DNA from: Antedon mediterranea
Taxonomy: Eukaryota; Echinodermata; Crinoidea; Comatulida; Antedonidae
Length of the DNA: 64,000 nucleotides
Reading direction: 5' to 3'
Assembly: GCF_964355755.1 (NCBI RefSeq)
Contig: NC_092679.1
Location: 9,910,932-9,974,931, forward strand
Positions 3,139-64,000 of this stretch are shown here, piece by piece (position 1 is the stretch's first letter; each line of letters starts with the position of its first letter). Below the pieces are notes generated by a model. It worked only from the letters and a program-made list of their open reading frames with translations. It was not told the DNA's origin and did no database searches. The position numbers and the translations under genes are program-made.

Positions 3139-3209
3139 GATGGAAAGGGGGACGTAAATTCTGTGAACCCTAAACACAGTTGGTCGATTACCTTTAACTC
3201 TATTTCACC

Positions 3210-3281
3210 GACCAGCGTGGGAATCGAACCCACGACATATGTGTTGTCAACACGGCGCTCAGTCGTCTGAGCTAACTGGCC
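3210..3281 (-). tRNA. tRNA-Val(GAC)-like sequence, probably a pseudogene or SINE head
   Basis: On the minus strand these 72 bases divide as a canonical tRNA: a 7-bp acceptor stem with two G-U pairs (GGCCAGT/GCTGGTC), a D arm with GCTC/GAGC, a 7-base anticodon loop TTGACAA, a 5-base variable region, and a perfect T arm GTGGG-TTCGATT-CCCAC. The anticodon would be GAC (Val). The two outer anticodon-stem pairs are mismatched, Val-GAC is unusual in animals, and no pol III T tract follows directly. A tRNA-derived pseudogene or SINE head therefore fits better than a working gene. It lies in the part of the 2.7-kb unit that is missing from copy 1. Confidence 0.5.
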
Positions 3282-3339
3282 ATTTTGGTTTTAGAAATGT
3301 TAATATGATATTTATGACGTAATGATGAATTACGTAATA

Positions 3340-42316: not shown

Positions 42317-42608
42317 ATAGATCAGCGAGAGAGAAATAGATCAGCGAGAGAGATAGATCAGCGAGAGAGAGATAGATCAGCGAGAGAGAGAGAGAGAGAG
42401 AGATCAGCGAGAGAGATAGATCAGCGAGAGAGAGATAGATCAGTGAGAGAGAGATAGATCAGCGAGAGAGAGATAGATCAGCGAGAGAGATAGATCAGCG
42501 AGAGAGAGATAGATTAGCGAGAGAGAGATAGATCAGCGAGAGAGAGATAGATCAGCGAGAGAGAGATAGATCAGCGAGAGAGAGAGAGATCAGCGAGAGA
42601 GAGATAGA

Positions 42609-42655
<47 letters not shown>

Positions 42656-45540
42656 AGCGAGAGAGAGAGAGATAGATCAGCGAGAGAGAGAGAGATAGAT
42701 CAGCGAGAGAGAGATAGATCAGCGAGAGAGAGATAGATAGATCAGCGAGAGAGAGATAGATAGATCAGCGAGAGATAGATAGATCAGTGAGAGAGAGATA
42801 GATCAGCGAGAGAGAGATAGATAGATCAGCGAGAGAGAGATAGGTCAGCGAGAGAGAGATAGATCAGCGAGAGAGATAGATAGATCAGCGAGAGAGAGAT
42901 AGATCAGCGAGAGAGAGAGAGAGAGAGAGAGATAGATCAGCGAGAGAGAGAGAGATAGATGAGCGAGAGAGAGATAGATAGATCAGCGAGAGAGAGATAG
43001 ATCAGCGAGAGAGATAGATCAGCGAGAGAGAGATAGATAGATAGATGAGCGAGAGAGAGATAGATGAGCGAGAGAGAGATAGATCAGCAAGAGAGAGAGA
43101 TAGATAAGCGAGAGAGAGATAGATCAGCGAGAGAGAGATAGATAGATAGATCAGCGAGAGAGAGATAGATAGATCAGCTAGAGAGAGATAGATCAGCGAG
43201 AGAGAGATAGATAGATCAGCGAGAGAGAGAGAGATAGATCAGCGAGAGAGAGATAGATCAGCGAGAGAGATAGATAGATCAGCGAGAGAGAGAGATAGAT
43301 CAGCGAGAGAGAGATAGATGAGCGAGAGAGAGATAGATCAGCGAGAGGGAGAGATAGATCAGCGAGAGAGAGATAGATCAGCGAGAGAGATAGATCAGCG
43401 AGAGAGAGATAGATCAGCGAGAGAGAGATAGATCAGCGAGAGAGAGATAGATCAGCTAGAGAGAGAGATAGATCAGCGAGATAGAGAAAGATCAGCGAGA
43501 GAGAGATAGATCAGCGACAGAGAGATAGAACAGCGAGAGAGAGATAGATCAGCGAGAGAGATATAGATCAGCGAGAGAGAGATAGATCAGCGAGAGATAG
43601 ATAGATCAGCGAGAGAGAGAGAGATAGATCAGCAAGAGAGAGATAGATCAGCAAGAGAGAGATAGATCAGCGAGAGAGAGAGATAGATCAGCGAGAGCGA
43701 GATAGATTAGCGAGAGAGAGATAGATAAGCGAGAGAGAGATAGATCAGCGAGAGAGAGAGAGATAGATCAGCGAGAAAAAGATAGATCAGCGAGAGAGAT
43801 AGATAGATCAGCGAGAGAGAGAGAGAGATAGATCAGCGAGAGAGAGAGATAGATCAGCGAGAGAGAGATAGATGAGCGAGAGAGAGATAGATCAGCGAGA
43901 GGGAAAGATAGATCAGCGAGAGAGAGATAGATCAGCGAGAGAGATAGATCAGCGAGAGAGAGATAGATCAGCGATAGAGAGATAGATCAGCGAGAGAGAG
44001 ATAGATCAGCGAGAGAGAGAGAGAGATAGATCAGCGAGAGAGAGTGAGAGAGATAGATCAGCGAGAGAGAGATAGATCAGCGAGAGAGAGATAGATAGAT
44101 CAGCGAGAGAGAGATAGATAGATCAGCATGAGATAGATAGATCAGCGAGAGAGAGATAGATCAGCGAGAGAGAGAGATAGATAGATCAGCGAGAGAGAGA
44201 TAGGTCAGCGAGAGAGAGATAGATCAGCGAGAGAGATAGATAGATCATCGAGAGAGAGATAGATCAGCGAGAGAGAGAGAGAGAGAGAGATAGATCAGCG
44301 AGAGAGAGAGAGAGAGAGAGATAGATCAGCGAGAGAGAGAGATAGATCAGCGAGAGAGAGATAGATCAGCGAGAGAGATAGATAGATCAGCGAGGGAGAG
44401 ATAGATCAGCGACAGAGAGATAGATCAGCGAGAGAGAAAAAGATCAGCGAGAGAGAGATAGATCAGCGACAGAGAGATAGATCAGCGAGAGAGAGATAGA
44501 TCAGCGAGAGGGAGAGATAGATCAGCGAGAGAGAGATAGATCAGCGAGAGAGAGATAGATCAGCGAGAGAGAGATAGATCAGCGAGAGAGAGATAGATCA
44601 GCGAGAGAGAGAGAGATAGATCAGCGAGAGAGAGAGAGATAGATCAGCGAGAGAGAGAAAGATCAGCGAGAGAGAGATAGGTCAGCGACAGAGAGATAGA
44701 TCAGCGAGAGAGAGATAGATCAGCGAGAGAGATATAGATCAGCGAGAGAGAGATAGATCAGCGAGAGAGAGATAGATCAGCGAGAGAGAGAAATAGATCA
44801 GCGAGAGAGAGAAAGATCAGCGAGAGAGAGATAGATCAGTGAGAGAGAGATAGATCAGCGAGAGAGAGATAGATTAGCGAGAGAGAGATAGATCAGCGAG
44901 AGAGAGAGAGATAGATCAGAGAGAGAGATAGATCAGCGAGAGAGAGATAGATCAGCGAGAGAGAGATAGATTAGCAAGAGAGAGATAGATCAGCGAGAGA
45001 GAGATAGATCAGCGAGAGAGAGAGAGATCAGCGAGAGAGAGATAGATCAGCGAGAGAGAGATAGATCAGCGAGAAAGAGATAGATCAGCGAGAGAGAGAT
45101 AGATAGATCAGCGAGAGAGATAGATCAGCGAAAGAGAGATAGATAGATCAGCGAGAGAGAGATAGATCAGCGAGAGAGATAGATCAGCGGGAGAGAGATA
45201 GAGAGATAGATGAGCGAGAGAGAGATAGATGAGCGAGAGAGAGATAGATCAGCGAGAGAGAGATATATAAGCGATAGAGAGATAGATCAGCGAGAGAGAG
45301 ATAGATAGATAGATCAGCGAGAGAGAGATAGATAGATCAGCTAGAGAGAGATAGATCAGCGAGAGAGAGATAGATAGATCAGCGAGAGAGAGATAGATCA
45401 GCGAGAGAGAGAGATAGATCAGCGAGAGAGAGATAGATCAGCGAGAGAGAAAATGATCAGCAAGAGAGAGATAGATCAGCGACAGAGAGATAGATCAGCG
45501 AGAGAGAGATAGATCAGCGAGAGAGATATAGATCAGCGAT
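42317..45540 (+). repeat. Satellite block C
   Basis: About 3.2 kb of the 19-bp satellite in the same orientation as block A, with long GA runs (for example 42617-42652). The first ~145 bp next to the LINE tail are nearly identical, in inverted form, to 45541-45686. The block ends abruptly at 45540, where orientation flips. Confidence 0.95.
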
Positions 45541-45686: not shown

Positions 45687-46335
45687 TAATAATAATAATA
45701 ACAGGGTTTTTATAGCGCACATACCACTCAAGAGTGCTCAAGGCGCATTAAAAAAAAAAAAATTTAAACAAATCATACAAATGCCTGACAAATAAAATGC
45801 AATTTCTTTGGAGGGTCCCCATCCGTTCTCGTTCTGTCGCGGTCCCGGACCCCTACCTAGATGACCAAACAAAGGAACAGGATACACATTTGCCTTGCCA
45901 CAGACGACCGGGTGCTCAGAGACAACAACCAAGATAAGATAATGCTGGTCAGGAAAAAGTATACTATAAAATTCTAGAACTTTAAGAAACCTCATGATTT
46001 CCATATGCCTTAATGAATAAATGTGTTTTTAATAATTTTTTAAAAGTATCAAAAGTTTTGCAAAATCTGATAGAGCTTGGTATTGCATTCCATAGACGAG
46101 GAGCAGTAACGGTGAAAGCTCTGTCTCCCCATGAGTGGTGAGACTTAGGTTGATGTAGAAGCAGCGTATCACTAGAACTCAGATTCCGTCTGGGAACATA
46201 CAGCCTAAGCATGTCAGAAATATATTCAGGAGCCATGCCATTAATAGACTTAAAAACATAGAGTAATAATTTAAAAACAATGCGGTACCTAACAGGAAGC
46301 CAATGCAAAGTTTCCAAGGTATTTGATATGTGTGC
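45687..46335 (-). mobile_element. Inverted LINE copy, 3' part (interrupted)
   Basis: On the minus strand this matches 41665-42316 of the LINE: the end of ORF2 (TLETLHWLPVRYRI through KAYGNHEVS), the 3' UTR and the tail. Differences are scattered substitutions. It stops at the 5' end of the RAG1-like transposon and resumes at 52071. Frames here are remnants of a reverse transcriptase C-terminus and are not functional. Confidence 0.88.
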
Positions 46336-46372
46336 CACGGCAGTTTCAAACGCGATATCCGAGACACAAAGT
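46336..46372 (+). promoter_or_regulatory. 5' RSS-like end with 21-bp spacer
   Basis: CACGGCA at 46336-46342, a 21-bp spacer, then ACACAAAGT at 46364-46372. The nonamer-like block matches the ACAAAAAGT of the other end in 8 of 9 positions. The following GTGTTT...GCGCTTTTGATT is shared with the right end of the element at 34081-36230. The arrangement recalls a 23-type V(D)J signal, but the heptamer matches CACAGTG only at CAC and one inner G. Confidence 0.7.
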
Positions 46373-46996
46373 GTTTACAACGCGCTTTTGATTGATACGC
46401 CTGGCGCGTGCCTTGAGCAGCTATTTATAGCCCACCAACATCGAGCGAAATGTTTACATTCGCTAGCTATAAACAGAGAGTGTATCATACGAAGTAAATA
46501 CAGTCTTACAATGACCAATTAATAAAGTTTTCCTCGAATCTTACAGTGTTTGCTTTGTTATTGTATTTTGTATTAGGGAAAATTGTCTAGGATTAAAAAA
46601 TATTATTAAAAAAGCGAAATTTTAACGATGTTTGCGATAGTTTCAAAAGCTGAAAATTTACATAAATAGCGCCCTCACGGCGAAAGTTTATCGTCGCGGT
46701 AAGTTCAAGCTTTTGATCGTCTGATAGCAAATCTCTGCAATTTTTTCGAGCAACACCGTTAATTCCAAGTGAAAGCGGAGACTTTATTCTTTATTTAGCT
46801 CAAAATTCAGGCTGACGTCTACTTTCAAATTGATTTGAGCTAAATTTGAAATTGACTTATTTCTGTTCAAAATTCCAGTGATTTTATAGGTAAAAATAGG
46901 CCTAGGGCAAAGTTAATTATATATTTTTTAAAGAATTGTGTATTGGTTTTGCATTGACTGTATGTGGTATGTTACTGTTATTTATTGTCTTGTGAA
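46373..46996 (+). promoter_or_regulatory. 5' non-coding region and likely promoter of the RAG1-like gene
   Basis: No convincing coding sequence. TATA-like motifs occur at 46422-46430 (TATTTATAG) and 46468-46473 (TATAAA). CGCGGTAAGT at about 46695-46704 looks like a splice donor, and AG acceptor candidates lie near 46878 and 46889, so a 5' untranslated exon and intron are possible. The exact transcription start cannot be read from sequence. Confidence 0.4.
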
Positions 46997-47824
46997 ATGG
47001 AGTACCATACATATGCATTGAGTAATTTATGTCGTGTATGTGGTGTCAAGTTAACACGAAATCAGCGAAAATTTGACCTAACTAAAGTAAAAGATAGCGT
47101 CCTGACATTTTTAAATATCAATTTAACTCATGAAAACAAAGATGTACATCCACCATTCATTTGCAAGAACTGTCAATTTTCAAGCTATAACAAGGTTAGC
47201 ACAACTCAAAGGTACATCTGGAGACAACACACACAACAATCATGTTTCACATGTTATTTATTATCAGAACAGTCAAAACCAGGTAAGAGACTAAAACAAG
47301 TAAAACTCAACACATTATTTTCTGAAACAGAATGTGACGTTATTCCATCAAAATTTACAGTCAATGACAAAATCAATTCTGAACCTTTCATTTGCCAAAT
47401 ATGCAACTCGATTTTGTCTTTCAACAGTCTTGAGTCAAACTGTTCACATCACTATTGTTCTAGTTGTATGTATAATTTGTTTAGTACCCTCCATGTTAAC
47501 GTATGTTCATGTCTTGTGTGCGCAAAGCCAATGCACATGCTGGAATTTAAACCCGCCTCCCAAATTGTAATAGAGTCTCTAAAATCACTAGAATTACAAT
47601 GCTCGTGCAATAAGTTCATAAAATACTCTCAACATCAGAGACATATTTGTGAACACCAGACAACTAAAGAAGTGATTTATCATAATGTTTCAAAAGCTGT
47701 ATCAATGTTAGAGAAATCACTAGAAGATAGTCATGTCTCCCAAACAATACAAACGTTTGCAGAAAAAGTTGTTTACAATCAACTAAAGAAAAGTAAGGAA
47801 ATGCTGATTGCAACAAATGGTCGG
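46997..47824 (+). CDS. RAG1L: Exon 1: RAG1 non-core zinc modules and C3HC4 RING
   Basis: Residues 1-276. LCRVCG (11-16), DVHPPFICKNC (49-59) and W75-x2-H78-x4-C83-x2-C86 follow the order of the RAG1 central region (LCRICG, IHP..FCHNC, WHPHTPSCDIC). The RING is C133-x2-C136-x12-C149-x-H151-x2-C154-x2-C157 followed by C172-x2-C175, all eight ligands present. It is followed by LQCSCNKFIKYSQHQRHIC, which sits where RAG1 has its ZFA zinc finger. In RAG1 this RING dimerises and has ubiquitin-ligase activity. The exon ends at CGG followed by donor GTGAGT, phase 0. Confidence 0.85.
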
Positions 47825-50800
47825 GTGAGTGCTTTAAAACAAATTCTGTAATTATCATATTGCATGTTATAAAAAGTAGATTAATATTATTATAACAGAA
47901 TTGTTAGCATAAAACATACAAATACAATTCTTATCTACAGCCAGCAAAGATTGCTATGATACCAAACACCAAAGTCTCAAGCGATAAGGCCAGTTCTCGA
48001 ACTGTTTCAAGACGAGCAAATAGCATCAGCAGCATCATAAAATCAGTTGGCAATAGTGAGGCTGGTGATTTCCATCAAAAAGTGTACTCAGCCAAACATA
48101 TGAGTCAAGCGGTCTTAAAAACAGCCAACATAGCATCAACTTCGTCTATAGATACAGATAAGGCTCTGGCAATGGTGTCAGACTGCCATCTGGCATGGAA
48201 CCAGCTACGAAAGCTAAGAAGGTAAACAAACAATTATGTGATTAAATAAAACCATGCATGAATACAGGCATTTTAGACACAGTCAAGTATGTCTAATAAT
48301 AAAGCGAGACTACATTATTAATCATTTTTTATGTACTAGATATGTGGAGAAGGGGACAATACCATCAGAGAAAAGGATGCGGCAGCGGCAAAATGATCTC
48401 ATTGGGGATTATTTTGAATCCACAATGGAAATGCTATGTTTTAGGTCTGAGACGTCCCCAGACGGGATAGAATTAAGATCAACGCCTACTGTCAAACTGA
48501 AAAACATTAAAAAAGTTGTATTTTCATATCTTGATGAACACTCAAGGTACGCTGAAGTTAAATTTAAATATGTGCTTACAAAGTGTAGAACTTACTTTTT
48601 AGGACTTTACTTTTGTTCCTATGGATTTTGCTATGGAAATAAAAGTTAAAAGAAATTAATTAAAAACTGAATTAATATTTACTAAATTTTTTACAGACTG
48701 AACAACCTATCTCCCAATAATAACGAGATTTGGATAAAGTTTGGCGGGGATAAGGGAGGTGGAAGTACCAAATATGAGGTACAGATATGTAGCCTCGCCA
48801 AACCAAATTCAATTAACAACATCATCGTCGTACTAATATTTGATGCCCCTGACATGATGTTTAATATTAACCGGACTCTTCCGGAAGTGGCCCACCAAGT
48901 TGTTGCTTTGAACGGGGAAAAATGGCGGTAAGAATACAACTAGTATATCAACTTAACAATTATGTGGATGCGTATATAAGTAATAAAATAAAAATATATG
49001 TATAATTTCTTTCAGCAATTACACACTGAGAGTTTTCTGTTTTGGGGACTATGAATATCTAACAAAACTCTATGGATTAAATGGACCAAATGGTAAACTA
49101 TTAAATTATTTTATCATCATTTAATTTATACAAAATCTTTCTAAGCCAATTTTATTTATACTGTATTACTGCATATTTTAGCATTTTTAAACATTGTGAA
49201 AAAATTTGAATACTTTTAGCTCGATACTGCTGTCTCTTTTGTGAAAAACCAAAAGCAGAAATGCAATTAAAGGCACCACCCGCCAAACAGCGATCATTGG
49301 CTTCAATCAGAGCCAACTATAGAATGTTTATGGAAGATGGCGGAATTGAAAGCCGATCTAAGGATGTTTCCATGAGCGTTGTTAATAATCCCTTAGTATC
49401 AATTGAGGTAGATCATGTAAGTACATCAGTTTTGTTTTTAATTATCTTTATATTAGAGAAACAAATGTACTTACTTCATTATATGGCACTGTTGGTATTA
49501 AAATTTATATCTTTTAGGTGTCTGTTCCTAGCCTGCACTTGTCATTGGGCATATTCAAGAAGCTCTTTGATATGCTTGAGACGGAGGCGCACAGCATAGA
49601 TTGCCTCATATATTCCCTAAGGAAAAATGGAGAACTTGATGACACTTCTGAATCAAAGTTTGATAAAATAATTCAACATCAGATCCAAACACAAATTGAT
49701 ATCAAAGAAAAGATTGAAGAAAAGAAATTAAAGTTGACTGAGATGGAGGATGCAATGCCATTAATCTATCTTAAAGGAAGTGTTGATGGTAGCATCATTA
49801 CCAATGTGGGAAAGATAGTCAAATTGAGAGAAGAGATTGAGTCACTGGTAAGTTACTCAAACAATAAATGACATGTATGTGTCTGGCAAGACGCATCTAC
49901 ACACACACATACTCTAAAGACAAAACTTGTATTATATTTTATTTTACAGACAAAATGCATGGAAAATGGGCTTCCATTTGGAACGGGTCCAATTGTCACA
50001 TCACTGGAGCGTGTGCTACAAAAAAATCGCATCCAACGGCAAGCCTATCATGGTAAATCATTTATTGGTAACCATGTTCATAAATGTTGTCAGGTAAATT
50101 AACTATTCTTTTAATTGATATTGTTTCAACTGTTAATTATTAAAATTGTAGTTTTTAAAATGTATATTTGTTTTTAATAGGACCACGTTAGGAATGAACT
50201 AGTGAATGCTCCACTACATGAAATGAAAATTCAAGAAGCTGAGATTCCTATCGGAAAAATTCAGCTAATTGACAAAAGAGTAAAAGAATTAGTCACCAAG
50301 TACGATGCACTCCTTTCAAAATTTTCTAGGGTTCACAACAACTTGAATAATTCAAAACCTGTCACAGATGTTGATATTCAAAGAAATGGTAATGTAATTA
50401 TGCTTACCTTTCAAGGTATTCCTTAGACATGCCATTGTTTCTTTTCCTACAACACACTGCAACTGTTTCTTTTCTCTTCTACAAAAAAAAATTCAGATGA
50501 AGCCATAAAAGACTTTATGGAGGAATATCGAAAAACCAACAAAAGTATATCTCCAAAATTACATATGCTCGAGGAACATGTCATTCCCCAATTAAAGGCT
50601 TGGAGATTTGGTCTGGGACTGGTTAGCGAGCAAGGTGGGGAGTCTATTCACGCCGCGCTTAATAAAAGGAAAAGAACAGTTGCTGGGATGCATGACAGAC
50701 TTGGACAGTTAACATCCATGATGCGGTCACATGCAATTACCACTCAGCCATGCATAATAGAAGAAATAGTTGAACCCAAAAGAAGAAAAATTGGTAACAA

Positions 50801-50896
50801 TTTACACTTTATTGATTACACTATTTGTGCTTTTTAGCTCCCTGCTCACCAAAAATTAAATAAACCTGTTTATATTTTTCAGAAAAAGAAGAATAA
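46997..50896 (+). CDS. RAG1L: RAG1-like transposase, 11 exons, 937 residues, intact
   Basis: Proposed join: 46997-47824, 47941-48221, 48340-48546, 48697-48927, 49016-49092, 49220-49416, 49518-49847, 49950-50093, 50181-50388, 50497-50793, 50883-50896. All introns are GT-AG and the frame stays open to TAA at 50894. The ATG at 46997 has a good context; the frame further upstream has no ATG. Residues 12-235 match the RAG1 non-core zinc region and RING; residues about 370-930 match the RAG1/Transib DDE core. Candidate catalytic residues are D457, D527 and E883, with zinc ligands C546, C549, H857 and H862. The predicted role is nuclear transposase cutting at the CAC ends. Human RAG1 has 1,043 residues, so this protein is slightly shorter. 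A further N-terminal exon cannot be excluded. The resemblance is from memory of RAG1, not from a search. Confidence 0.88.
48697..49092 (+). CDS. RAG1L: Exons 4-5: first and second catalytic aspartates of the DDE core
   Basis: Exon 4 (48697-48927) has KFGGDKGGGSTK, with D457 where RAG1 has D600 in DGMGD. LIFDAPDMMFNINRTL follows, matching LMLADESDHETLTAIL of RAG1. After a short intron (48928-49015), exon 5 (49016-49092) has LRVFCFGDYEYLTKLYGL, placing D527 at RAG1 D708 (GTGYDEKL). The 70-residue spacing between the two Asp is shorter than the 108 of RAG1, close to a minimal Transib-like core. The exon edges are GT-AG and the frame is kept. Confidence 0.82.
49220..50388 (+). CDS. RAG1L: Exons 6-9: zinc-binding and connecting part of the RAG1-like core
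   Basis: Exons are 49220-49416, 49518-49847, 49950-50093 and 50181-50388. ARYCCLFCEKPKAEM gives the C546-x2-C549 zinc pair, matching YICTLCDATR of RAG1 (C727, C730). VPSLHLSLGIFKKLFDML matches the RAG1 VPSIDALHCDIG segment. RQAYHGKSFIGNHVHKC matches the RAG1 MNGNFARKLM region. A charged helical stretch of about 60 residues (around 645-715) lies between the last two. No internal stop or frameshift was found after splicing. Confidence 0.78.
50497..50793 (+). CDS. RAG1L: Exon 10: catalytic glutamate and histidine zinc ligands
   Basis: KLHMLEEHVIPQLKAW is followed by GLVSEQGGESIHAALNKRK. This aligns with RAG1 NYFHKTLAHVPEIIE...WASEGNESGNKLFRRFRK. E883 then corresponds to E962, and H857 and H862 to zinc ligands H937 and H942. 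The ESIHA version of the motif is common in RAG1-like transposase relatives of invertebrates. After a donor at 50794 a tiny last exon (50883-50896) adds four residues. If this intron is retained the protein would instead end at 50837 with 14 different residues. Confidence 0.85.
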
Positions 50897-52042
50897 AGTA
50901 CACGACAATGAATACGAAATAAAAGAAAATATAGGCTTACTGATAAATCTGACGGAGTGCCATCTTCTTCTTTATTATGGATTCTCTTATGAACCACACT
51001 TGCATCAATAAAGTAGTCGTACTTGTTTGTGTTGGTGGTATTTTTGGAACCTGTAGTACAATTTTTGAATTATAAATATTTATCATCATTATTTTAAAAA
51101 AATGGTGGACTAGCGATTGAAATACATGATGAAATATTATATTATTATTAGGACTATACTGTCAAAATTAAAATCAAAATTTTATTTTTTATTCTACAAA
51201 TGCAATGCTGTTGCTGCCATAGTTTAGTAATATTCAAGCCATAGGAAGATAGACTATGATATTTTCACATTTTCTACTGTAGAATAACTTAGGCCCTCAT
51301 GAAAGCTAGTTAGTAAGTATACCTATCCTCCTAGGCCTACCTATGTCTTGATGGTACCATATTAAAAAATTAGGCCTAGCCTAGCTAGATAGAGCTGTTA
51401 CTAAGCCTGGCCCTGCTGATTTCCCCTCTTAACGACATATACTTGGGCTAGGCCTACTAAGAGTATATTATTCTAGGCCTAGGCCTATACAGTATTTATT
51501 TTTCGTGGCTTAAACCTAGTACTTGGTGACAAACCTTTGTTAGGCCTAGGCCTTTAGCAGCACACCCACGTGTGCAAAACAGGCAAATGGGCCCCGACTT
51601 TCTGTGTATATAATTATTAAACTGGATTAGACGTCAGCGAGATTTTTTAAATATTGTTTATCAAGTTTTTGAATTTTCACATCGACTAGGCGCCGATGTT
51701 TATGTAAATTGCAAAAAAAATATATAACCTCACCATTACCCTGTAATTAAACTGCTATTTTTTACTGTTTTTTGTCGCAAAATAGACGTAAGATTTCAAT
51801 ACTCATATCTGGTGAAGTCTTGAGAAACGGAGTGACCGCTGGCTTCGAATATCAATTACATGCCTTCTTCTTCGAATATAACATGAATATTCATTAAATT
51901 TTCAATTATAACACTGTCTATTGGTCAGTTTATTCCCTCTCTTTTACCAGGGTATTAAAAATAGTCTTCCGGGTATTTAAACTAGCGCCCTCTATAACAT
52001 AAAATAAGAAAAAGCGAGCATCGAAACTATAGAGGGCTCACC
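50897..52042 (+). other. 3' UTR and non-coding 3' region of the transposon, no RAG2-like gene
   Basis: AATAAA occurs at 50892-50897 (overlapping the stop) and at 51007-51012. The rest is AT-rich with many AGGCCTA motifs between 51290 and 51560. I find no frame on either strand long enough for a RAG2-like kelch protein, which in amphioxus ProtoRAG lies convergent to the RAG1-like gene. Sequence near 52031-52042 (AGAGGGCTCACC) is shared with the non-autonomous element. Confidence 0.6.
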
Positions 52043-52070
52043 ACTTTTTGTCTCGCTGGAAACTGCCGTG
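52043..52070 (-). promoter_or_regulatory. 3' RSS-like end with 12-bp spacer
   Basis: Read on the minus strand: CACGGCA (52070-52064), a 12-bp spacer, then ACAAAAAGT (52051-52043). ACAAAAAGT agrees with the V(D)J nonamer ACAAAAACC in the first seven positions. The inward continuation GGTGAGCCCTCTA is almost identical to the left end of the element at 34081. Confidence 0.72.
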
Positions 52071-52949
52071 GTGCATATCTTGGTAGTTTTTAACAACTCG
52101 TGCCGCTGTATTTTGAATCAGCTGAAGCCTGTGGAGTTGTTTTTGTGGGAGACCAAATAACAAGGAGTTACACATATCGAGACGCGAACTAACAAATGCA
52201 TGTACAAGTTGCTCAGCAGCTGCACGATTTAAGTATTTTCTGATGCCTTGAATATTTCTTAAATGATATGACGATGCAGACGTAATTTTAGAAATTATGA
52301 GCCGTCATTGTCATATTAGAATCCAGAATTACACCAAGATTTGTAACTTGTGTAGTATTTTTAGTACAAAAGTTACCAATGGAAACCCTCTTAGATGGAA
52401 TTTTCTCTAATTGTTTTTGCGAACCAAATAGAATGCACTCAGTCTTATCATCATCATTAAGTTTCAAAAAGTTTTTGGCCATCCAGACACGAATTTCAGA
52501 GATACATTTTTCAAGCAAATCAATTGATAATTCACCCTTTGTCATGGTAGGTTTAAACGATATATATATCTGAGTGTCATCAGCGTAAACATGATAACTA
52601 AGATTATATTTCTTAATGATATCACGAATAGGATACACATAAATTGTAAACAATTGTGGACCTAACACAGATCCTTGCGGAACAGAGTAATTTAAAGTGG
52701 TAGGTTGAGAGATTTCCTCTCTAATACAAATGTGTTGAGGTCTGTCCTCCAAGTATGATTGACACCATCTTAGTGCACATCCCTGAACACCAATAGAAGC
52801 ATGCAACCTCTCAGTCAGAATACTATGATCTACTGTATCAAACGCAGCACTCAAATCCAGTAAAATTAAAGCAGTTACTTTTTCAACATCCATCGCACGA
52901 AGTATATCATTGCTAACGCGCAGGAGTGCAGTTTCAGTACTGTGATGTG
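52071..52949 (-). mobile_element. Inverted LINE copy, 5' part (truncated reverse transcriptase)
   Basis: Minus-strand match to 40796-41670 of the LINE. It contains LLDLSAAFDTVDH, PQGSVLGP and YADDTQ, then the same 1-base frame break after MTMTAHNF. Differences include an extra GAT codon (LNDDDKTE instead of LNDDKTE) and several substitutions. It ends at CACATCACAG inside the reverse transcriptase, where satellite block D begins. It is the continuation of 45687-46335 across the RAG1-like transposon. Confidence 0.9.
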
Positions 52950-55900
52950 ATTGAGAGAGAGAGATAGATCAGCGAGAGCGAGATAGATTAGCGAGAGAGA
53001 GATAGATCAGCGAGAGAGAGATAGATCAGCGAGAGAGAGATAGATCAGCGAGAAAGAGATAGATCAGCGAGAGAGATAGATAGATCAGCGAGAGAGAGAG
53101 AGAGAGATAGATCAGCGAGAGAGAGAGAGATAGATCAGCGAGAGAGAGAGATATAGATCAGCGAGAGAGAGATAGATCAGCGAGAGGGAAAGATAGATCA
53201 GCGAGAGAGAGATAGATCAGCGAGAGAGAGAGAGAGATCATCGAGAGAGAGAGATAGATCAGCGAGAGAGAGATAGATCAGCGAGAGAGAGAGAGATAGA
53301 TCAGCGAGAGAGAGATAGATCAGCGAGAGAGGAAAAGTTCAGCGAGAAAGATATAGATCAGCGACAGAGAGATAGCTCAGCGAGAGAGAGATAAATCAGC
53401 GAGAGAGATATAGATCAGCGAGAGAGATAGATCAGCGAGAGAGAGATAGATCAGCGAGAGAGAGAAAGATCAGCGAGAGAGAGATAGATCAGCGAGAGAG
53501 AGATAGATCAGCGCGAGAGATAGATCAGCGAGAGAGAGAGAGATAGATCAGCGAGAGAGAGATAGATCAGCGAGAGAGAGAGAGAGAGAGATAGATCAGC
53601 GAGAGAGAGACAGATAGATCAGCGAGAGAGAGTGAGAGAGATAGATCAGCGAGAGAGAGAGATAGATCAGCGAGAGAGAGGGATAGATCAGCGAGAGAGA
53701 GATAGATCAGCGAGAGAGAAAAAGATCAGCGAGAGAGAGATAGATCAGCGAGAGAGAGATAGATCAGCGACAGAGAGATAGATCAGCGAGAGAGATATAG
53801 ATCAGCGAGAGAGATAGATCAGCGAGAGAGAGATAGATCAGCGAGAGAGAGAAAGATCAGCGAGAGAGAGAGATAGATCAGCGAGAGAGAAATAGATCAG
53901 CGAGAGAGATAGATCAGCGAGAGAGAGAGATAGATCAGCGAGAGAGATAGATCAGCGAGAGAGAGAGATGGATCAGCGAGAGAGAGAGATAGATCAGCGA
54001 GATAGAGAAAGATCTGCGAGAGAGAGATAGATCAGCGAGAGAGAGATAGATCAGCGAGAGAGATATAGATCAGCAAGAGAGAGATAGATCAGCGAGAGAG
54101 AGATAGATCAGCGAGAGAGAGAGAGAGATCAGCGAGAGAGAGATAGATCAGCGAGAGAGAGATAGATCAGCTAGAGAGAGAGATAGATCAGCGAGATAGA
54201 GAAAGATCAGCGAGAGAGAGATAGATCAGCGACAGAGAGATAGATCAGCGAGAGAGCGATAGATCAGCGAGAGAGATATAGATCAGCGAGAGAGAGATAG
54301 ATCAGCGAGAGATAGATAGATCAGCGAGAGAGAGAGAGAGATAGATCAGCAAGAGAGAGATAGATCAGCAAGAGAGAGATAGATCAGCGAGAGAGAGAGA
54401 TAGATCAGCGAGAGCGAGATAGATTAGCGAGAGAGAGATAGATCAGCGAGAGAGCGATAGATCAGCGAGAGAGAGAGATAGATCAGCGAGAAAGAGATAG
54501 ATCAGCGAGAAAGATAGATAGATCAGAGAGAGAGAGAGATAGATCAGCGAGAGAGAGAGAGAGAGATAGATCAGCGAGAGAGAGATAGATCAGCGAGAGA
54601 GAGAAAGATCAGCGAGAGAGAGAGATAGATCAGCGAGAGAGAAATAGATCAGCGAGAGAGATAGATCAGCGAGAGAGAGATAGATCAGCGAGAGAGAGAT
54701 AGATCAGCGAGAGAGAGAGATGGATCAGCGAGAGAGAGAGATAGATCAGCGAGATAGAGAAAGATCTGCGAGAGAGAGATAGATCAGCGAGATAGAGATA
54801 GTTCAGCGAGAGAGAGATAGATCAGCAAGAGAGAGATAGATCAGCGAGAGAGAGATAGATCAGCGAGAGAGAGAGAGAGAGATCAGCGAGAGAGAGATAG
54901 ATCAGCGAGAGAGAGATAGATCAGCTAGAGAAAGAGATAGATCAGCGAGATAGAGAAAGATCAGCGAGAGAGAGATAGATCAGCGACAGAGAGATAGATC
55001 AGTGAGAGAGAGATAGATCAGCGAGAGAGATATAGATCAGCGAGAGAGAGATAGATCAGCGAGAGATAGATAGATCAGCGAGAGAGAGAGAGATAGATCA
55101 GCAAGAGAGAGATAGATCAGCAAGAGAGAGATAGATCAGCGAGAGAGAGAGATAGATCAGCGAGAGCCAGATAGATTAGCGAGAGAGAGATAGATCAGCG
55201 AGAGAGAGAGATAGATCAGCGAGAAAGTGATAGATCAGCGAGAGAGATAGATAGATCAGCGAGAGAGAGAGATAGATCAGCGAGAGAGAGAGAGATAGAT
55301 CAGCGAGAGAGAGAGATATAGATCAGCGAGAGAGAGATAGATCAGTAAGAGGGAGAGATAGATCAGCGAGAGAGAGATAGATCAGCGAGAGAGAGAGAGA
55401 GATCAGCGAGAGAGAGAGATAGATAGGCGAGAGAGAGATAGATCAGCGAGAGAGAGAGATAGATCAGCGAAAGAGAGATAGATCAGCGAGAGAGAAAAAT
55501 ATCAGCGAGAGAGAGATAGATCAGCGACAGAGAGATAGATCAGTGAGAGAGAGATAGATCAGCGAGAGAGATATAGATCAGCAAGAGAGATAGATCAGCG
55601 AGAGAGAGATAGATCAGCGAGAGAGAGAAAGATCAGCGAGAGTGAGATAGATCAGCGAGAGAGAGATAGATCAGCGAGAGAGATAGATCAGCGAGAGAAA
55701 GAGATAGATCAGCGAGAGAGAGAGATAGACCAGCGAGAGAGATAGATCAGCGAGAGAGAGATAGATAAGCAAGAGAGAGATAGATTAGCGAGAGAGAGAT
55801 AGATCAGCGAGAGAGAGATAGATCAGCGAGAGAGAGAGAGGTCAGCGAGAGAGAGATAGATCAGCGAGAGAGAGAGAGAGATAGATCAGCGAGAAAGAGA

Positions 55901-58900
55901 GAGACAGATAGATCAGCGAGAGAGAGTGAGAGAGATAGATCAGCGAGAGAGAGAGAGAGAGATATAGATCAGCGAGAAAGAGAGATAGATCAGCGAGAGA
56001 GAGATTGATCAGCGAGAGAGAAAAAGATCAGCGAGAGAGAGATAGATCAGCGACAGAGAGATAGATCAGCGAGAGAGAGATAGATCAGCGAGAGAGATAT
56101 AGATCAGCGAGAGAGATAGATCAGCAAGAGAGAGATAGATCAGCGAAAGAGAGAAAGATCAGCGAGAGGGAGATAGATCAGCGAGAGAGAGATAGATCAG
56201 CGAGAGAGATAGATCAGCGAGAGAGAGAGATAGATCAGCGAGAGAGAGAGAGATAGATCAGCGAGAGAGATAGATCAGCGAGAGAGAGATAGATAAGCGA
56301 GAGAGAGATAGATTAGCGAGAGAGAGATAGATCAGCGAGAGAGAGATAGATCAGCAAGAGAGAGATAGATCAGCGAGAGAGAGATAGATCAGCGAGAGAG
56401 AGAGAGAGATCAGCGAGAGAGAGATAGATCAGCGAGAGAGAGATAGATCAGCTAGAGAGAGAGATAGATCAGCGAGATAGAGAAAGATCAGCGAGAGAGA
56501 GATAGATCAGCGACAGAGAGATAGATCAGCGAGAGAGAGATAGATAAGCGAGAGAGATATAGATCAGCGAGAGAGAGATAGATCAGCGAGAGATAGATAG
56601 ATCAGCGAGAGAGAGAGAGAGAGATAGATCAGCAAGAGAGAGATAGATCAGCAAGAGAGAGATAGATCAGCTAGAGAGAGAGATAGATCAGCGAGAGCGA
56701 GATAGATTAGCGAGAGAGAGATAGATCAGCGAGAGAGAGATAGATCAGCGAGAGAGAGAGATAGATCAGCGAGAAAGAGATAGATCAGCGAGAGAGATAG
56801 ATAGATCAGCGAGAGAGAGAGATAGATCAGCGAGAGAGAGAGAGAGAGATAGATCAGCGAGAGAGAGAGATATAGATCAGCGAGAGAGAGATAGCTCAGT
56901 GACAGGGAGAGATAGATCAGCGAGAGAGTGATAGATCAGCGAGAGAGAGAGAGAGATCAGCGAGAGAGAGAGATAGATAGGCGAGAGAGAGAGATAGATC
57001 AGCGAGAGAGAGATAGATCAGCGAGAGAGAAAAAGATCAGCGAGAGAGAGATAGATCAGCGAGAGAGAGATAGATCAGCGACAGAGAGATAGATCAGTGA
57101 GAGAGAGATAGATCAGCGAGAGAGATATAGATCAGCGAGAGAGATAGATCAGCGAGAGAGAGATAGATCAGCGAGAGAGAGAAAGATCAGCGAGAGTGAG
57201 ACAGATCAGCGAGAGAGAGAGAGATAGATCAGCGAGAGAGATAGATCAGCGAGAGAGAGATAGATAAGCAAGAGAGAGATAGATTAGCGAGAGAGAGATA
57301 GATCAGCGAGAGAGAGATAGATCAGCGAGAGAGAGAGAGGTCAGCGAGAGAGAGATAGATCAGCGAGAGAGAGAGAGAGAGAGATAGATCAGCGAGAGAG
57401 AGAGACAGATAGATCAGCGAGAGAGAGTGAGAGAGATAGATCAGCGAGAGAGAGAGAGAGAGAGATAGATCAGCGAGAAAGAGAGATAGACCAGCGAGAG
57501 AGAGATAGATCAGTGAGAGAGAAAAAGATCAGCGAGAGAGAGATAGATCAGCGACAGAGAGATAGATCAGCGAGAGAGAGATAGATCAGCGAGAGAGATA
57601 TAGATCAGCGAGAGAGATAGATCAGCGAGAGAGAGATAGATCAGCGAGAGAGAGAAAGATCAGCGAGAGAGAGATAGATCAGCGAGAGAGAGATAGATCA
57701 GCGAGAGAGATAGATCAGCGAGAGAGAGAGATAGATCAGCGAGAGAGAGAGAGATAGATCAGCGAGAGAGATAGATCAGCGAGAGAGAGATAGATAAGCG
57801 AGAGAGAGATAGATTAGCGAGAGAGAGATAGATCAGCGAGAGAGAGAGATAGATCAGCGAGAGAGAGAAAGATCAGCTAGAGAGAGATAGATCAGCGAGA
57901 GGGAGGTAGATCAGCGAGAGAGATAGATCAGCGAGAGAGAGAGATAGATCAGCGAGAGAGAGAGAGAGATAGATCAGTGAGAGAGATAGATCAGCGAGAG
58001 AGAGATAGATAAGCGAGAGAGATATAGATTAGCGAGAGAGAGATAGATCAGCGAGAAAGAGATAGATCAGCGAGAGAGAGATAGATCAGCGAGAGAGAGA
58101 GAGATAGATCAGCGAGAGAGAGACAGATAGATCAGCGAGAGAGAGTGAGAGAGATAGATCAGCGAGAGAGAGAGAGAGAGAGAGATAGATCAGCGAGAGA
58201 GAGACAGATAGATCAGCGAGAGAGAGTGAGAGAGATAGATCAGCGAGAGAAGGTAAGAGAGATAGATCAGCGAGAGAGAGATAGATAGATCAGCGAGAGA
58301 GAGATAGATCAGCGAGAGAGATATAGATCAGCGAGAGAGAGATAGATCAGCGAGAGATAGATAGATCAGCGAGAGAGAGAGAGAGAGATAGATCAGCAAG
58401 AGAGAGATAGATCAGCAAGAGAGAGATAGATCAGCGAGAGAGAGAGATAGATCAGCGAGAGCGAGATAGATTAGCGAGAGAGAGATAGATCAGCGAGAGA
58501 GAGATAGATCAGCGAGAGAGAGAGATAGATCAGCGAGAAAGAGATAGATCAGCGAGAGAGATAGATAGATAAGCGAGAGAGAGAGATAGATCAGCGAGAG
58601 AGAGAGAGATAGATCAGCGAGAGAGAGAGATATAGATCAGCGAGAGAGAGATAGATCAGTGAGAGGGAGAGATAGATCAGCGAGAGAGTGATAGATCAGC
58701 GAGAGAGAGAGAGAGAGAGATCAGCGAGAGAGAGAGATAGATAGGCGAGAGAGAGATAGATCAGCGAGAGAGAGAGATAGATCAGCGAGAGAGAGATAGA
58801 TCAGCAAGAGAGAAAAAGATCAGCGAGAGAGAGATAGATCAGCGACAGAGTGATAGATCAGTGAGAGAGAGAAAGATCAGCGAGAGAGATATAGATCAGC

Positions 58901-61900
58901 GAGAGAGAGAGAGGTCAGCGAGAGAGAGATAGATCAGCGAGAGAGAGAGAGAGAGATAGATCAGCGAGAGAGAGAGACAGATAGATCAGCGAGAGAGAGT
59001 GAGAGAGATAGATCAGCGAGAGAGAGAGAGAGAGAGAGAGATAGATCAGCGAGAAAGAGAGATAGACCAGCGAGAGAGAGATAGATCAGTGAGAGAGAAA
59101 AAGATCAGCGAGAGAGAGATAGATCAGCGACAGAGAGATAGATCAGCGAGAGAGAGATAGATCAGCGAGAGAGATATAGATCAGCGAGAGAGATAGATCA
59201 GCGAGAGAGAGATAGATCAGCGAGAGAGAGAAAGATCAGCGAGAGAGAGATAGATCAGCGAGAGAGAGATAGATCAGCGAGAGAGATAGATCAGCGAGAG
59301 AGAGATAGATCAGCGAGAGATAGATAGATCAGCAAGAGAGAGAGATAGATCAGCAAGAGAGATATATTAGCGAGAGAGAGAGATAGATCAGCGAGAGCGA
59401 GATAGATTAGCGAGAGAGAGATAGATCAGCGAGAGAGAGATAGATCAGCGAGAGAGAGAGATAGATCAGCGAGAAAGAGATAGATCAGCGAGAGAGATAG
59501 ATAGATCAGCGAGAGAGAGATAGATCAGCGAGAGAGAGAGAGAGAGAGAGAGATAGATCAGCGAGAGAGAGAGATAGATCAGCGAGAGAGAGATAGATCA
59601 GCGAGAGAGAGATAGTTCAGCGAGAGGGAGAGATAGATCAGTGAGAGAGATAAAGATCAGCGAGAGAGAGATAGATCAGCGAAAGAGAAATAGATCAGCG
59701 AGAGGGAGATAGATCAGCGAGAGAGAGAGATAGATCAGCGAGAGAGAGAGATAGATCAGCGAGAGAGAGAGAAAGATCAGCGAGAGAGAGATAGATCAGC
59801 GACAGAGAGATAGATCAGCGACAGAGAGATAGATCAGCGAGAGAGAGAGAGATCAGCGAGAGAGAGAGATAGATCAGCGAGAGAGAGATAGATAGATCGG
59901 CGAGAGAGAGATAGATAGATCAGCGAGAGAGAGATAGATAGATCAGCGAGAGAGAGATAGATCAGCGAAAGAGAGATAGATAGATCAGCGAGAGAGAGAT
60001 AGATCAGCGAGAGAGATAGATTAGCGAGAGAGAGATAGATAGATGAGCGAGAGAGAGATAGATCAGCGAGAGAGAGATAGATCAGCGAGAGAGAGATAGA
60101 TAGATCAGCGAGAGAGAGATAGATAGATCAGCGAGAGAGAGATAGATAGATCAGCGAGAGAGAGAGATAGCTGAGCGAGAGAGAGATAGATCAGCGAGAG
60201 AGATAGATAGATCAGCGAGAGAGAGAGAGAGAGAAAGAGAGAGAGATAGATAAGCGAGAGAGAGATAGATCAGCGAGAGAGAGATAGATCAGCGAGAGAG
60301 AGATAGATCAGCGAGAGGGAGAGATAGATCAGCGAGAGAGAGAGAGATAGATCAGAAAGAGAGAGATAGATCAGCGAGAAAGAGATAGATCAGCGAGAGA
60401 GAGATAGATTAGCAAGAGAGAGATAGATCAGCGAGAGAGAGGTAGATCAGCGAGAGAGAGAGAAATCAGCCAGAGAGAGATAGATCAGCGAGAGAGAGAT
60501 AGATCAGCGAGAGAGAGATAGATTAGTGAGAGAGAGATAGATCAGCGAGAGAGAGATAGATCAGCGAGAGAGAGAGATAGATCAGCGAGAGAGAGAGAAA
60601 GATCAGCGAGAGAGAGATAGATCAGCGACAGAGAGATAGATCAGCGAGAGAGAGAGAGATCAGCGAGAGAGAGAGATAGATCAGCGAGAGAGAGATAGAT
60701 AGATCAGCGAGAGAGAGATAGATAGATCAGCGAGAGAGAGATAGATAGATCAGCGAGAGAGAGATAGATCAGCGAAAGAGAGATAGATAGATCAGCGAGA
60801 GAGAGATAGATCAGCGAGAGAGATAGATTAGCGAGAGAGAGATAGATAGATGAGCGAGAGAGAGATAGATCAGCGAGAGAGAGATAGATCAGCGAGAGAG
60901 AGATAGATCAGCGAGAGAGAGATAGATAGATCATCGAGAGAGAGATAGATAGATCAGCGAGAGAGAGATAGATAGATCAGCGAGAGAGAGAGATAGATGA
61001 GCGAGAGAGAGATAGATCAGCGAGAGAGAGAGAGAGAGAAAGAGAGAGAGATAGATAAGCGAGAGAGAGATAGATCAGCGAGAGAGAGATAGATCAGCGA
61101 GAGGGAGAGATAGATCAGCGAGAGAGAGAGAGATAGATCAGAAAGAGAGAGATAGATCAGCGAGAAAGAGATAGATCAGCGAGAGAGAGATAGATTAGCA
61201 AGAGAGAGATAGATCAGCGAGAGAGAGGTAGATCAGCGAGAGAGAGAGAAATCAGCCAGAGAGAGATAGATCAGCGAGAGAGAGATAGATCAGCGAGAGA
61301 GAGATAGATCAGCGAGAGAGAGATAGATAGATCAGCGAGAGAGAGATAGATCAGCGAGAGAGATATAGATCAGCGAGAGAGAGATAGATCAGCGAGAGAT
61401 AGATAGATCAGCAAGAGAGAGAGATAGATCAGCAAGAGAGATATATTAGCGAGAGAGAGAGAGATAGATCAGCGAGAGAGAGATAGATCAGCGAGAGAGA
61501 TATACATCAGCGAGAGAGAGATAGATCAGCGAGAGATAGATAGATCAGCGAGAGAGAGAGAGAGAGAGTTAGATCAGCAAGAGAGAGATAGATCAGCGAG
61601 AGAGAGAGATAGATCAGCGAGAGAGAGATAGATCAGCGAGAGAGAGATAGATCAGCAAGAGAGAGATAGATCAGCGAGAGGTAGAGATAGATCAGCGAGA
61701 GAGAGATAGATCAGCGAGAGAGAGAGATAGATCAGCGAGAGAGAGATAGATCAGCGAGAGAGATAGATCAGCGAGAGGGAGAGATAGATCAGCGAGAGAG
61801 AGATAGATCAGCGAGAGAGAGATAGATCAGCGAGAGAGAGATAGACCAGCGAGAGAGAGATAGATCAGCGAGAGAGAGAGAGAGATAGATCAGCAAGAGA

Positions 61901-62175
61901 GAGAGAAAGATCAGCGAGAGAGAGAAAGATCAGCGAGAGAGAGATAGATCAGTGACAGAGAGATAGATAAGCGAGAGAGAGATAGATCAGCGAGAGAGAT
62001 AGATCAGCGAGAGAGAGATAGATAAGCGAGAGAGAAAGATCAGCGAGAGAGAGATAGATCAGCGAGAAAGAAATAGATCAGCGAGAGAGAGATAGATCAG
62101 CGAGAGGGAGAGAAAGATCAGCGAGAGAGAGATAGATCAGCGAGAGAGATAGATCAGCGAGAGAGAGAGAGATAG

Positions 62176-62215
<40 letters not shown>

Positions 62216-64000
62216 TAAGCGAGAGAGAGATAGATTAGCGAGAGAGAGATAGATCAGTGAGAGAGAGATAGATCAGCGAGAGAGAGAGAGATCAGCGAGA
62301 GAGAGATAGATCAACGAGAGAGAGAGAGATCAGCGAGAGAGAGAGATAGATCAACGAGAGAGAGATAGATCAGCGAGAGAGAGATAGATTAGCGGGGGAG
62401 AGATAGATCAGCGAAAGAGAGAGAGATAGATCAGAAAGAGAGAGATAGATCAGCGAGAGAGAGATAGATTAGCAAGAGAGAGATAGATCAGCGAGAGAGA
62501 GATAGATCAGCGAGAGAGAGAGAGATCAGCGAGAGAGAGATAGATCAGCAAGAGAGAGATAGATCAGCGAGAGAGAGATAGATCAGCGAGAGAGAGATAG
62601 ATAGATCAGCGAGAGAGAGATAGATCAGCGAGAGAGATATAGATCAGCGAGAGAGAGATAGATCAGCGAGAGATAGATAGATCAGCGAGAGAGAGAGATA
62701 GATCAGCAAGAGAGAGATAGATCAGCGAGAGAGAGAGATAGATCAGCGAGAGCGAGATAGATTAGCGAGAGAGAGATAGATCAGCGAGAGAGAGATAGAT
62801 CAGCGAGAGAGAGAGATAGATCAGCGAGAGAGAGAGAAAGATCAGCGAGAGAGAGATAGATCAGCGACAGAGAGATAGATCAGCGACAGAGAGATAGATC
62901 AGCGAGAGAGAGAGAGATCAGCGAGAGAGAGAGATAGATCAGCGAGAGAGAGATAGATAGATCAGCGAGAGAGAGATAGATAGATCAGCGAGAGAGAGAT
63001 AGATAGATCAGCGAGAGAGAGATAGATCAGCGAAAGAGAGATAGATAGATCAGCGAGAGAGAGATAGATCAGCGAGAGAGATAGATTAGCGAGAGAGAGA
63101 TAGATAGATGAGCGAGAGAGAGATAGATGAGCGAGAGAGAGATAGATCAGCGAGAGAGAGATAGATCAGCGAGAGAGAGATAGATAGATCAGCGAGAGAG
63201 AGAGATAGATAGATCAGCGAGAGAGAGATAGATAGATCAGCGAGAGAGAGAGATAGATGAGCGAGAGAGAGATAGATCAGCGAGAGAGATAGATAGATCA
63301 GCGAGAGAGAGAGAGAGAAAGAGAGAGAGATAGATAAGCGAGAGAGAGATAGATCAGCGAGAGAGAGATAGATCAGCGAGAGGGAGAGATAGATCAGCGA
63401 AAGAGAGAGAGATAGATCAGAAAGAGAGAGATAGATCAGCGAGAAAGAGATAGATCAGCGAGAGAGAGATAGATTAGCAAGAGAGAGATAGATCAGCGAG
63501 AGAGAGGTAGATCAGCGAGAGAGAGAGAAATCAGCCAGAGAGAGATAGATCAGCGAGAGAGAGATAGATCAGCGAGAGAGAGATAGATCAGCGAGAGAGA
63601 GATAGATAGATCAGCGAGAGAGAGATAGATCAGCGAGAGAGATTTAGATCAGCGAGAGAGAGATAGATCAGCGAGAGATAGATAGATCAGCAAGAGAGAG
63701 AGATAGATCAGCAAGAGAGATATATTAGCGAGAGAGAGAGATAGATCAGCGAGAGCGAGATAGATTAGCGAGAGAGAGATAGATCAGCGAGAGAGAGATA
63801 GATCAGCGAGAGAGAGAGATAGATCAGCGAGAAAGAGATAGATCAGCGAGAGAGATAGATAGATCAGCGAGATAGAGATAGATCAGCGAGAGAGAGAGAG
63901 AGAGAGATAGATCAGCGAGAGAGAGATAGATCAGCGAGAGAGAGATAGATCAGCGAGAGGGAGAGATAGATCAGTGAGAGAGATAAAGATCAGCGAGAGA
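52950..64000 (+). repeat. Satellite block D
   Basis: At least 11 kb of the 19-bp satellite, running off the window. Rare variants recur at long spacing: GGTAGATC followed by AAATCAGCCAG near 60441, 61227 and 63506, and AGCAAGAGAGATATATTAGCG near 59352, 61431 and 63709. This indicates higher-order repeats. The first of these markers also occurs in block A at 32224, so both blocks belong to one older array. No gene is present. Confidence 0.96.

Follow-up and report, generated by a model that had tools for sequence, protein, structure and literature searches.

A transposon whose protein combines the zinc modules, RING finger and catalytic core of RAG1 raises the question of whether it stands in the line that led to the vertebrate V(D)J recombinase. 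Such a DNA transposon, 5,735 bp long, lies at positions 46336-52070 of a 64-kb stretch of the genome of the crinoid Antedon mediterranea (the window, by which we mean the whole stretch analysed). The original prediction, made from the sequence alone, placed it with the proposed ancestors of that recombinase. Our analysis leads to a different assignment: the element is very probably a Chapaev DNA transposon that has a RAG1-type N-terminal zinc region, a RING finger and a RAG1-like RNase H core.

The assignment begins with the ends of the element and the best match of its protein. The terminal inverted repeats CACGGCAGTTTC, at 46336-46347 on the plus strand and 52059-52070 on the minus strand, are as perfect as had been claimed, with 12 of 12 positions identical, or 13 counting the flanking C/G, the right copy ending at 52070. 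The 13-mer of the ends occurs twice in the 64 kb with up to two mismatches (0.06 expected), a count also reached by 1 of 100 shuffles. A target duplication had likewise been predicted and is present, as GTGC at 46332-46335 and 52071-52074, but its length of exactly 4 bp (a match of 5 bp fails) changes how it is to be read. Chapaev transposons generally have 3-4-bp target duplications and CAC...GTG ends (PMC4079192), and a 4-bp duplication with CAC/GTG ends was found by script in all 10 complete elements detected in the genome and by eye in all three elements of a further family (L063 and relatives); the duplication is 4 bp in each of the 13 elements with both CAC ends, four of them from the window's family. 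The best curated profile of the 937-residue protein is Pfam DUF1280 (PF06918; E=1.6e-17, 64 bits against a cut-off of 25, residues 300-510), which PMC3985635 describes as corresponding to putative Chapaev transposases and which is matched by 16 of the 18 proteins of our alignment A1 (E<=0.1). The Pfam profile of the RAG1 core (PF12940) has no match to the protein at E<=1; for comparison, it scores 1256 bits on shark RAG1. Chapaevs with a Chapa domain, which is an N-terminal part of RAG1, and a RING after it were already described in 2015 (PMC4411706), where this order is said to occur in two Chapaev subgroups, citing Kapitonov and Jurka 2007. The Chapa domain (PF12560) scores above its cut-off in two relatives of the window protein (P0011 and P0018), but does not reach it in the window protein itself. 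As Chapaevs with Chapa and RING are known, and the duplications and ends are those of Chapaev, the element belongs to a known kind.

A single gene was found in the element. Its 11 exons, all on the plus strand, join into the stop-free frame of 937 residues that had been predicted and are separated by 10 introns of 87-150 bp, all GT-AG and 15-32% GC. Exon 1 (46997-47824, residues 1-276) encodes the Chapa/RAG1 N-terminal zinc region and the RING. It is followed by exon 2 (47941-48221), with the same splice sites in five further copies, exon 3 (48340-48546), whose splice sites are also kept in the copies, and exon 4 (48697-48927), which contributes to the DUF1280 match and holds GGDKGG (D457). 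The motifs GDYE (D527), CCLFC (C546, C549) and PSLHLSLG (H614) lie in exons 5 (49016-49092), 6 (49220-49416) and 7 (49518-49847), respectively. After exons 8 (49950-50093) and 9 (50181-50388), again with splice sites kept in the copies, exon 10 (50497-50793) holds both KLHMLEEH (H857, H862) and SEQGGES (E879, E883), and exon 11 (50883-50896) includes the stop codon. An annotated A. mediterranea protein of 555 aa (P0002) corresponds to residues 383-937 with four substitutions and no indel, so the gene model from residue 383, within exon 3, to exon 11 is independently supported. No second gene or RAG2L was seen, the approximately 1.8 kb outside the gene being without a stop-to-stop open reading frame (ORF) of more than 90 aa, though a gene split into many very short exons might escape this criterion; two small ORFs of the element have no Pfam match. 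Given the CAC/GTG ends, the 4-bp duplications, the one gene and the lack of a visible RAG2L, we assigned the element to Chapaev and not to the RAG-like/ProtoRAG transposons.

The RAG1 resemblance of the Chapaev transposase is nevertheless real. Searched alone, the window protein matches RAG1 weakly (E about 0.001) and in the RING region only. With a profile of the query and five full-length relatives, the best match of all solved proteins is mouse RAG1 100-382 (E=5.7e-23), and the N-terminal profile also matches a separate structure of the RAG1 N-terminal region (E=5e-11). A core model was built on P0002 and 17 further rows (predicted local distance difference test, pLDDT, 85.4; predicted template modelling score, pTM, 0.81). 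In a Foldseek search with this model, all 43 matches with E<=0.001 are RAG1, ProtoRAG (6b40) or HzTransib, the best being 6cg0_C (E=6e-13, template modelling score 0.58) and HzTransib occupying ranks 39-43; the first match beyond these is unrelated (E=0.023, probability 0.20). The predicted fold is thus consistent with the RAG1-like core of the original prediction, at 11-14% identity to RAG1 in structural alignments. A joint alignment with RAG1 places D457, D527, H614, C546/C549, H857/H862 and E883 collinearly on the catalytic, H795-type and zinc positions of RAG1. The predicted RAG1 order of zinc modules, RING, DDE core and C-terminal E is borne out. Key residues named for RAG1 proteins are D701, D811, H894 and E1063 of BbeRAG1L and H795 of mouse (PMC7204232); a fourth acidic residue, BbeRAG1L E764 (PMC7204232), has no certain counterpart in the window protein. 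The profile comparison that had been proposed for the translation therefore gave a split outcome: the N-terminal quarter finds RAG1, but the core is best matched by DUF1280, not PF12940.

We examined the insertion and searched for further copies. The transposon sits inside a dead retroelement, in agreement with the predicted nesting in another repeat. The sequence to its right codes, on the minus strand, for a reverse transcriptase (52291-52968; Pfam RVT_1, E=4e-23), and further retroelement remains lie at 45985-46374, also on the minus strand, the left flank fragment having no Pfam match. These remains are disrupted by the transposon and by frame shifts of their own, and joining the two flanks does not restore a single reading frame. 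A search of the 354-Mb genome with the left 365 bp of the element found nine places, four of them full-length left ends including that of the window. The search that had been proposed for other copies with the same ends was successful: three (L009, L010 and L011) are complete, with target duplications ATCT, GACC and AGTA. The frame was examined in six copies, namely these four and two (L013 and L015) that are bordered by N on both sides; all six retain the full frame and every splice site, as expected for the intact gene that had been proposed. L012 and L014 are degraded fragments, and L051 and L052, which have one end each and N, lay outside the frame examination. The window copy diverges from the others by 0.67-0.72%, and the non-window copies differ among themselves by 0.23-0.34%; L013 and L015 are identical to one another. 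By eye, L009 is flanked by the same type of 19-bp satellite as fills much of the window. With intact frames at 0-0.7% divergence and distinct duplications, the suspected recent activity is upheld: the Chapaev element is recently mobile and autonomous.

Two other accounts of the element were weighed against this evidence. It could belong to the RAG-like (TransibSU/ProtoRAG) transposons, closely related to the V(D)J ancestor, and have lost RAG2L; its N-terminal region and RING match RAG1, its core fold is best matched by RAG1 and ProtoRAG, and its ends start with CAC. RAG-like transposons are, however, described as having 5-bp duplications and a convergent RAG1L-RAG2L pair (PMC7204232), while here the duplications are 4 bp and no RAG2L was seen. 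DUF1280 is matched and PF12940 is not, and mean core identity to RAG1 is 15% for the window protein and 17% for six Chapaevs. The C-terminal Cx2Cx3GHx4C motif carried by invertebrate RAG1L (PMC7204232) is absent from residues 884-937, which have a single cysteine, and the element has a RING, whereas echinoderm RAG1L are described as being without this ring zinc finger dimerisation domain (PMC7204232). Duplication length, profile and gene content therefore led us to reject RAG-like/ProtoRAG membership; we consider it very unlikely, and the proposed place among the ancestors of the V(D)J recombinase is not sustained. The intact frame would also fit a domesticated gene or an old fossil in place of an active transposon. 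This is hard to reconcile with four insertions at unrelated sites, each with both ends and its own duplication (GTGC, ATCT, GACC or AGTA), or with divergence of at most 0.7% between copies, and we regard it as extremely improbable. Several observations do count against the Chapaev assignment or the RAG1-like description of the protein. The right boundary of another DUF1280 family (L059/L060) has neither inverted repeat nor 4-bp duplication. Compared with RAG1 alone, the core gives no clear match by sequence profile (hhalign probability 3.4%, E=0.013), and the profile does not recognise a nonamer-binding domain (hhalign probability 0.55%). The N-terminal model is poor (pLDDT 56) and confident in the RING only, and for the RING model the RAG1 dimerisation domain 1rmd (E=3.7e-5) is a slightly poorer match than LNX (E=1.4e-6) and TRAF6. 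Finally, support for exons 1 and 2 and for the beginning of exon 3 comes from the frame, from conservation and from the other copies.

The ends of the Chapaev element carry a second, putative signal. On the left, a subterminal block CGAGACACAAAGTG (46360-46373, plus strand) contains a nonamer-like ACACAAAGT that starts 21 bp past the first seven bases; on the right, a block CGAGACAAAAAGTG (52042-52055, minus strand) contains a nonamer-like ACAAAAAGT 12 bp past the first seven bases. Further in than the 12-bp repeat, the two ends share CGAGACAMAAAGTG (13 of 14 positions), at base 25 of the left end and base 16 of the right end, and resampled ends equalled this shared block in 3 of 2000 cases. 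With the spacer defined as the gap from the 7-base heptamer to the best match of the nonamer ACAAAAACC, a consensus taken from PMC8289069, the window element has a long spacer of 21 and a short spacer of 12. A pattern search of the genome returned 28 such ends, while the reversed pattern did not occur. The 28 ends form two families, one with CACGGCAG (spacers 21/12) and one with CACGGCTG (22/11); 20 belong to the 10 complete elements, each with one long end, one short end and a 4-bp duplication, and eight are single ends, two in loci with N and six without a partner end in about 6 kb. The second family includes a copy of 6.4 kb (L045) that holds exons for Chapa, RING and core, as read without splicing, and five shorter elements of 2.27-2.76 kb (L046-L050) with the same kind of ends. 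The third family with resolved ends (L063 and relatives; CACAGCTG) is represented by three elements, one of which was read at its two ends only, with spacers of 23/13 and duplications AGGA, GATG and CCAG, as determined by eye; the 3´ spacer of 13 in this family rests on an AAGT block common to both ends, where the nonamer match is 4/9, and the best nonamer match at that end is instead at spacer 5. A fourth copy of this family has a visible short end, with no long end in the 451 bp fetched. Across the three families, whose transposases are 28-57% identical in blocks, every one of the 13 elements whose two CAC ends were located combines a long (21-23 bp) and a short (11-13 bp) spacer, and in each family the copies that carry the gene have the long-spacer end on its 5´ side.

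The genome holds at least 53 DUF1280 matches, from which five families were sampled. End spacing was resolved in three of the five, the other two being L059/L060 and L061/L062. L059 and L060 are 99.95% identical over 6559 bp and have a CAC left end; at their right boundary there is no CAC, inverted repeat or 4-bp duplication, and they possibly reflect one-ended or aberrant movement. One further match (G000:C4:14570652-14570879) lies in a 702-aa reading frame with one internal TAG, unlike the exon-split copies, and may be an intron-poor or retrocopied member.

The N-terminal region and the core appear to tell different histories. We compared six Chapaev and 17 vertebrate RAG1 proteins over the N-terminal region (residues 1-230) and the core (350-937), omitting 231-349. 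In the N-terminal region, Chapaev proteins share on average 27% identity with one another, RAG1 proteins 52%, and members of the two groups 23%; the core values are 37%, 82% and 17%, respectively. The ratio of between-family to within-Chapaev identity is 0.88 [0.79-0.96] for the N-terminal region versus 0.46 [0.39-0.51] for the core, and 0.82 versus 0.45 without Cys/His columns. Maximum-likelihood distances give between/within ratios of 1.15 [0.93-1.21] and 2.76 [2.62-2.85], respectively (300 bootstrap trees), and the core identity ratio rises only to 0.50 when the quarter of blocks most alike between the families is used. Aligning the core with RAG1 by structure does not raise its identity either (11-14%). 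The faster-evolving part, the N-terminal region, is therefore the part that is more similar between RAG1 and Chapaev. The simplest reading, which we favour, is that the N-terminal module was exchanged between lineages after the cores had split. This would fit the recombination idea put forward for N-RAG-TP (PMC8355894), and fits less well with simple inheritance and loss (PMC4411706).

For both the end signals and the N-terminal module, a more ordinary history has to be considered. A phase of rapid core evolution along the RAG stem, for example when RAG2 joined, would look the same as a module exchange, and two properties of the comparison count against the exchange: it includes six Chapaevs and vertebrate RAG1 but no RAG1L, and its distances are near saturation. 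The spacing of the Chapaev ends, in turn, could be ordinary transposase-site asymmetry that converged on the 12/23 arrangement of recombination signal sequences (RSSs). The ends of the P element are also unequal. Only three families, from one genome, were resolved, the A-rich block agrees with 4-7 of 9 nonamer positions only, and the spacers of ProtoRAG are 27/31, not 12/23 (PMC8289069). Order and size are nevertheless alike in three families with widely differing transposases. When the best nonamer match was scored in the ranges 21-23 and 11-13, the observed weight was 4.33 of 6 ends, which was equalled by 1 of 20000 resampled ends (Markov shuffles), against convergence, but by 34 of 3000 permuted nonamers, in its favour; these are not clean probabilities, because the ranges were chosen with the first family already known, and the families are related by descent. 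On balance we lean slightly towards convergence. A bolder proposal, which we offer tentatively as the less probable one, is that the Chapaev ends may be working 12/23-type signals, of which the transposase would join one short-spacer and one long-spacer end, that the asymmetry may have existed outside the RAG lineage, and that the RAG1 non-core module may have passed between Chapaev and the RAG lineage after the cores split. The long-with-short combination in all 13 elements would be consistent with recombination restricted to unequal spacers. No report of such spacing in Chapaev was found in the literature searched; Repbase Reports lay outside it and may record it.

These features suggest how the Chapaev element most probably moves. 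The transposase, presumably as a dimer, would bind the CAC ends and the second, A-rich block, which at the 5´ end is set deeper inside the element by roughly one helical turn than its 3´ counterpart, and would pair the two unequal ends. D457, D527 and E883 would cut at CAC, and the element would be joined to target DNA with a 4-bp stagger. Excision may be of the hairpin type, as in RAG and Transib, and the RING may serve as a ubiquitin ligase or in dimerisation. The parts of this scheme that our data back are the gene, the ends, the 4-bp duplications, the multiplication of the element, the aligned catalytic residues and the predicted core fold. How the 12/23 rule and the RAG1 non-core region arose is a matter of debate (PMC8289069, PMC7204232, PMC8355894). 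The Antedon element is intact, recently mobile and present in few copies. It stands outside the RAG line yet combines the N-terminal region and RING with a RAG1-like core and near-12/23 ends, and offers a bench system for both questions. The case also illustrates that the RAG1 order of domains is alone insufficient to make an element a RAG ancestor.

Much of the window around the element is repetitive. A 19-bp satellite AGATAGATCAGCGAGAGAG with strong purine skew forms very long arrays at 5530-34080, 42317-45539 and 52955-64000, which take up roughly two-thirds of the window. Repeats of 258-262 bp, with a tRNA-like GGTTCGAACC stretch in the unit, form two further arrays at 448-1861 and 3344-4637; between these two is the only tRNA reported by ARAGORN, a tRNA-Val at 3208-3282 on the minus strand. 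Relatives of the transposase were not found in the viral and prokaryotic contigs scanned, and a wider protein search using the alignment returned two proteins only. A scan of the crinoid genome with the Pfam RAG1 profile gave no match, but its control matched nowhere either, so that RAG1 may still be present.

The Antedon element was compared with the known systems nearest to it. It shares with known Chapaevs the DUF1280 transposase, CAC/GTG ends, a 3-4-bp duplication and a Chapa domain followed by RING, and differs in representing new crinoid families with several near-identical intact copies and asymmetric end signals. With RAG-like transposons and vertebrate RAG1 it has in common the order of N-terminal zinc region, RING (where present) and RNase H core, the core fold, the CAC ends and the catalytic residues. 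It departs from RAG-like transposons in its 4-bp (not 5-bp) duplication, the absence of a visible RAG2L and the lack of a PF12940 match, and from vertebrate RAG1 in a core that is only about 15-17% identical. Transib has similar CAC ends and core fold, but is described without the N-terminal region and with mostly symmetric ends of little or no nonamer likeness (PMC7204232, PMC8289069). N-RAG-TP of Aplysia, compared by description only, also has a RAG1 N-terminal-like protein inside a transposon, but one that is all N-terminal-like, while the Antedon element adds a full core (PMC8355894). For the ends, most Transib families are symmetric, those of Hztransib resemble the nonamer hardly or not at all, and the asymmetric ends of ProtoRAG have spacers of 27/31 and a TR5 unlike the A-rich nonamer (PMC8289069). 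The 12RSS and 23RSS differ from the Chapaev ends in heptamer (CACAGTG, versus CACGGCA, CACGGCT or CACAGCT for the first seven Chapaev bases), and the Chapaev nonamer match is 4-7/9 with spacers of 11-13 and 21-23. Both nonetheless have a CAC start, an A-rich block and one short and one long spacer, with total lengths of 27-29 and 37-39 bp in Chapaev and 28 and 39 bp in the RSSs. Layout and asymmetry are thus similar and the sequences only partly so; in layout, the Chapaev ends look closer to the 12/23 RSS than do the ends of Transib or ProtoRAG.

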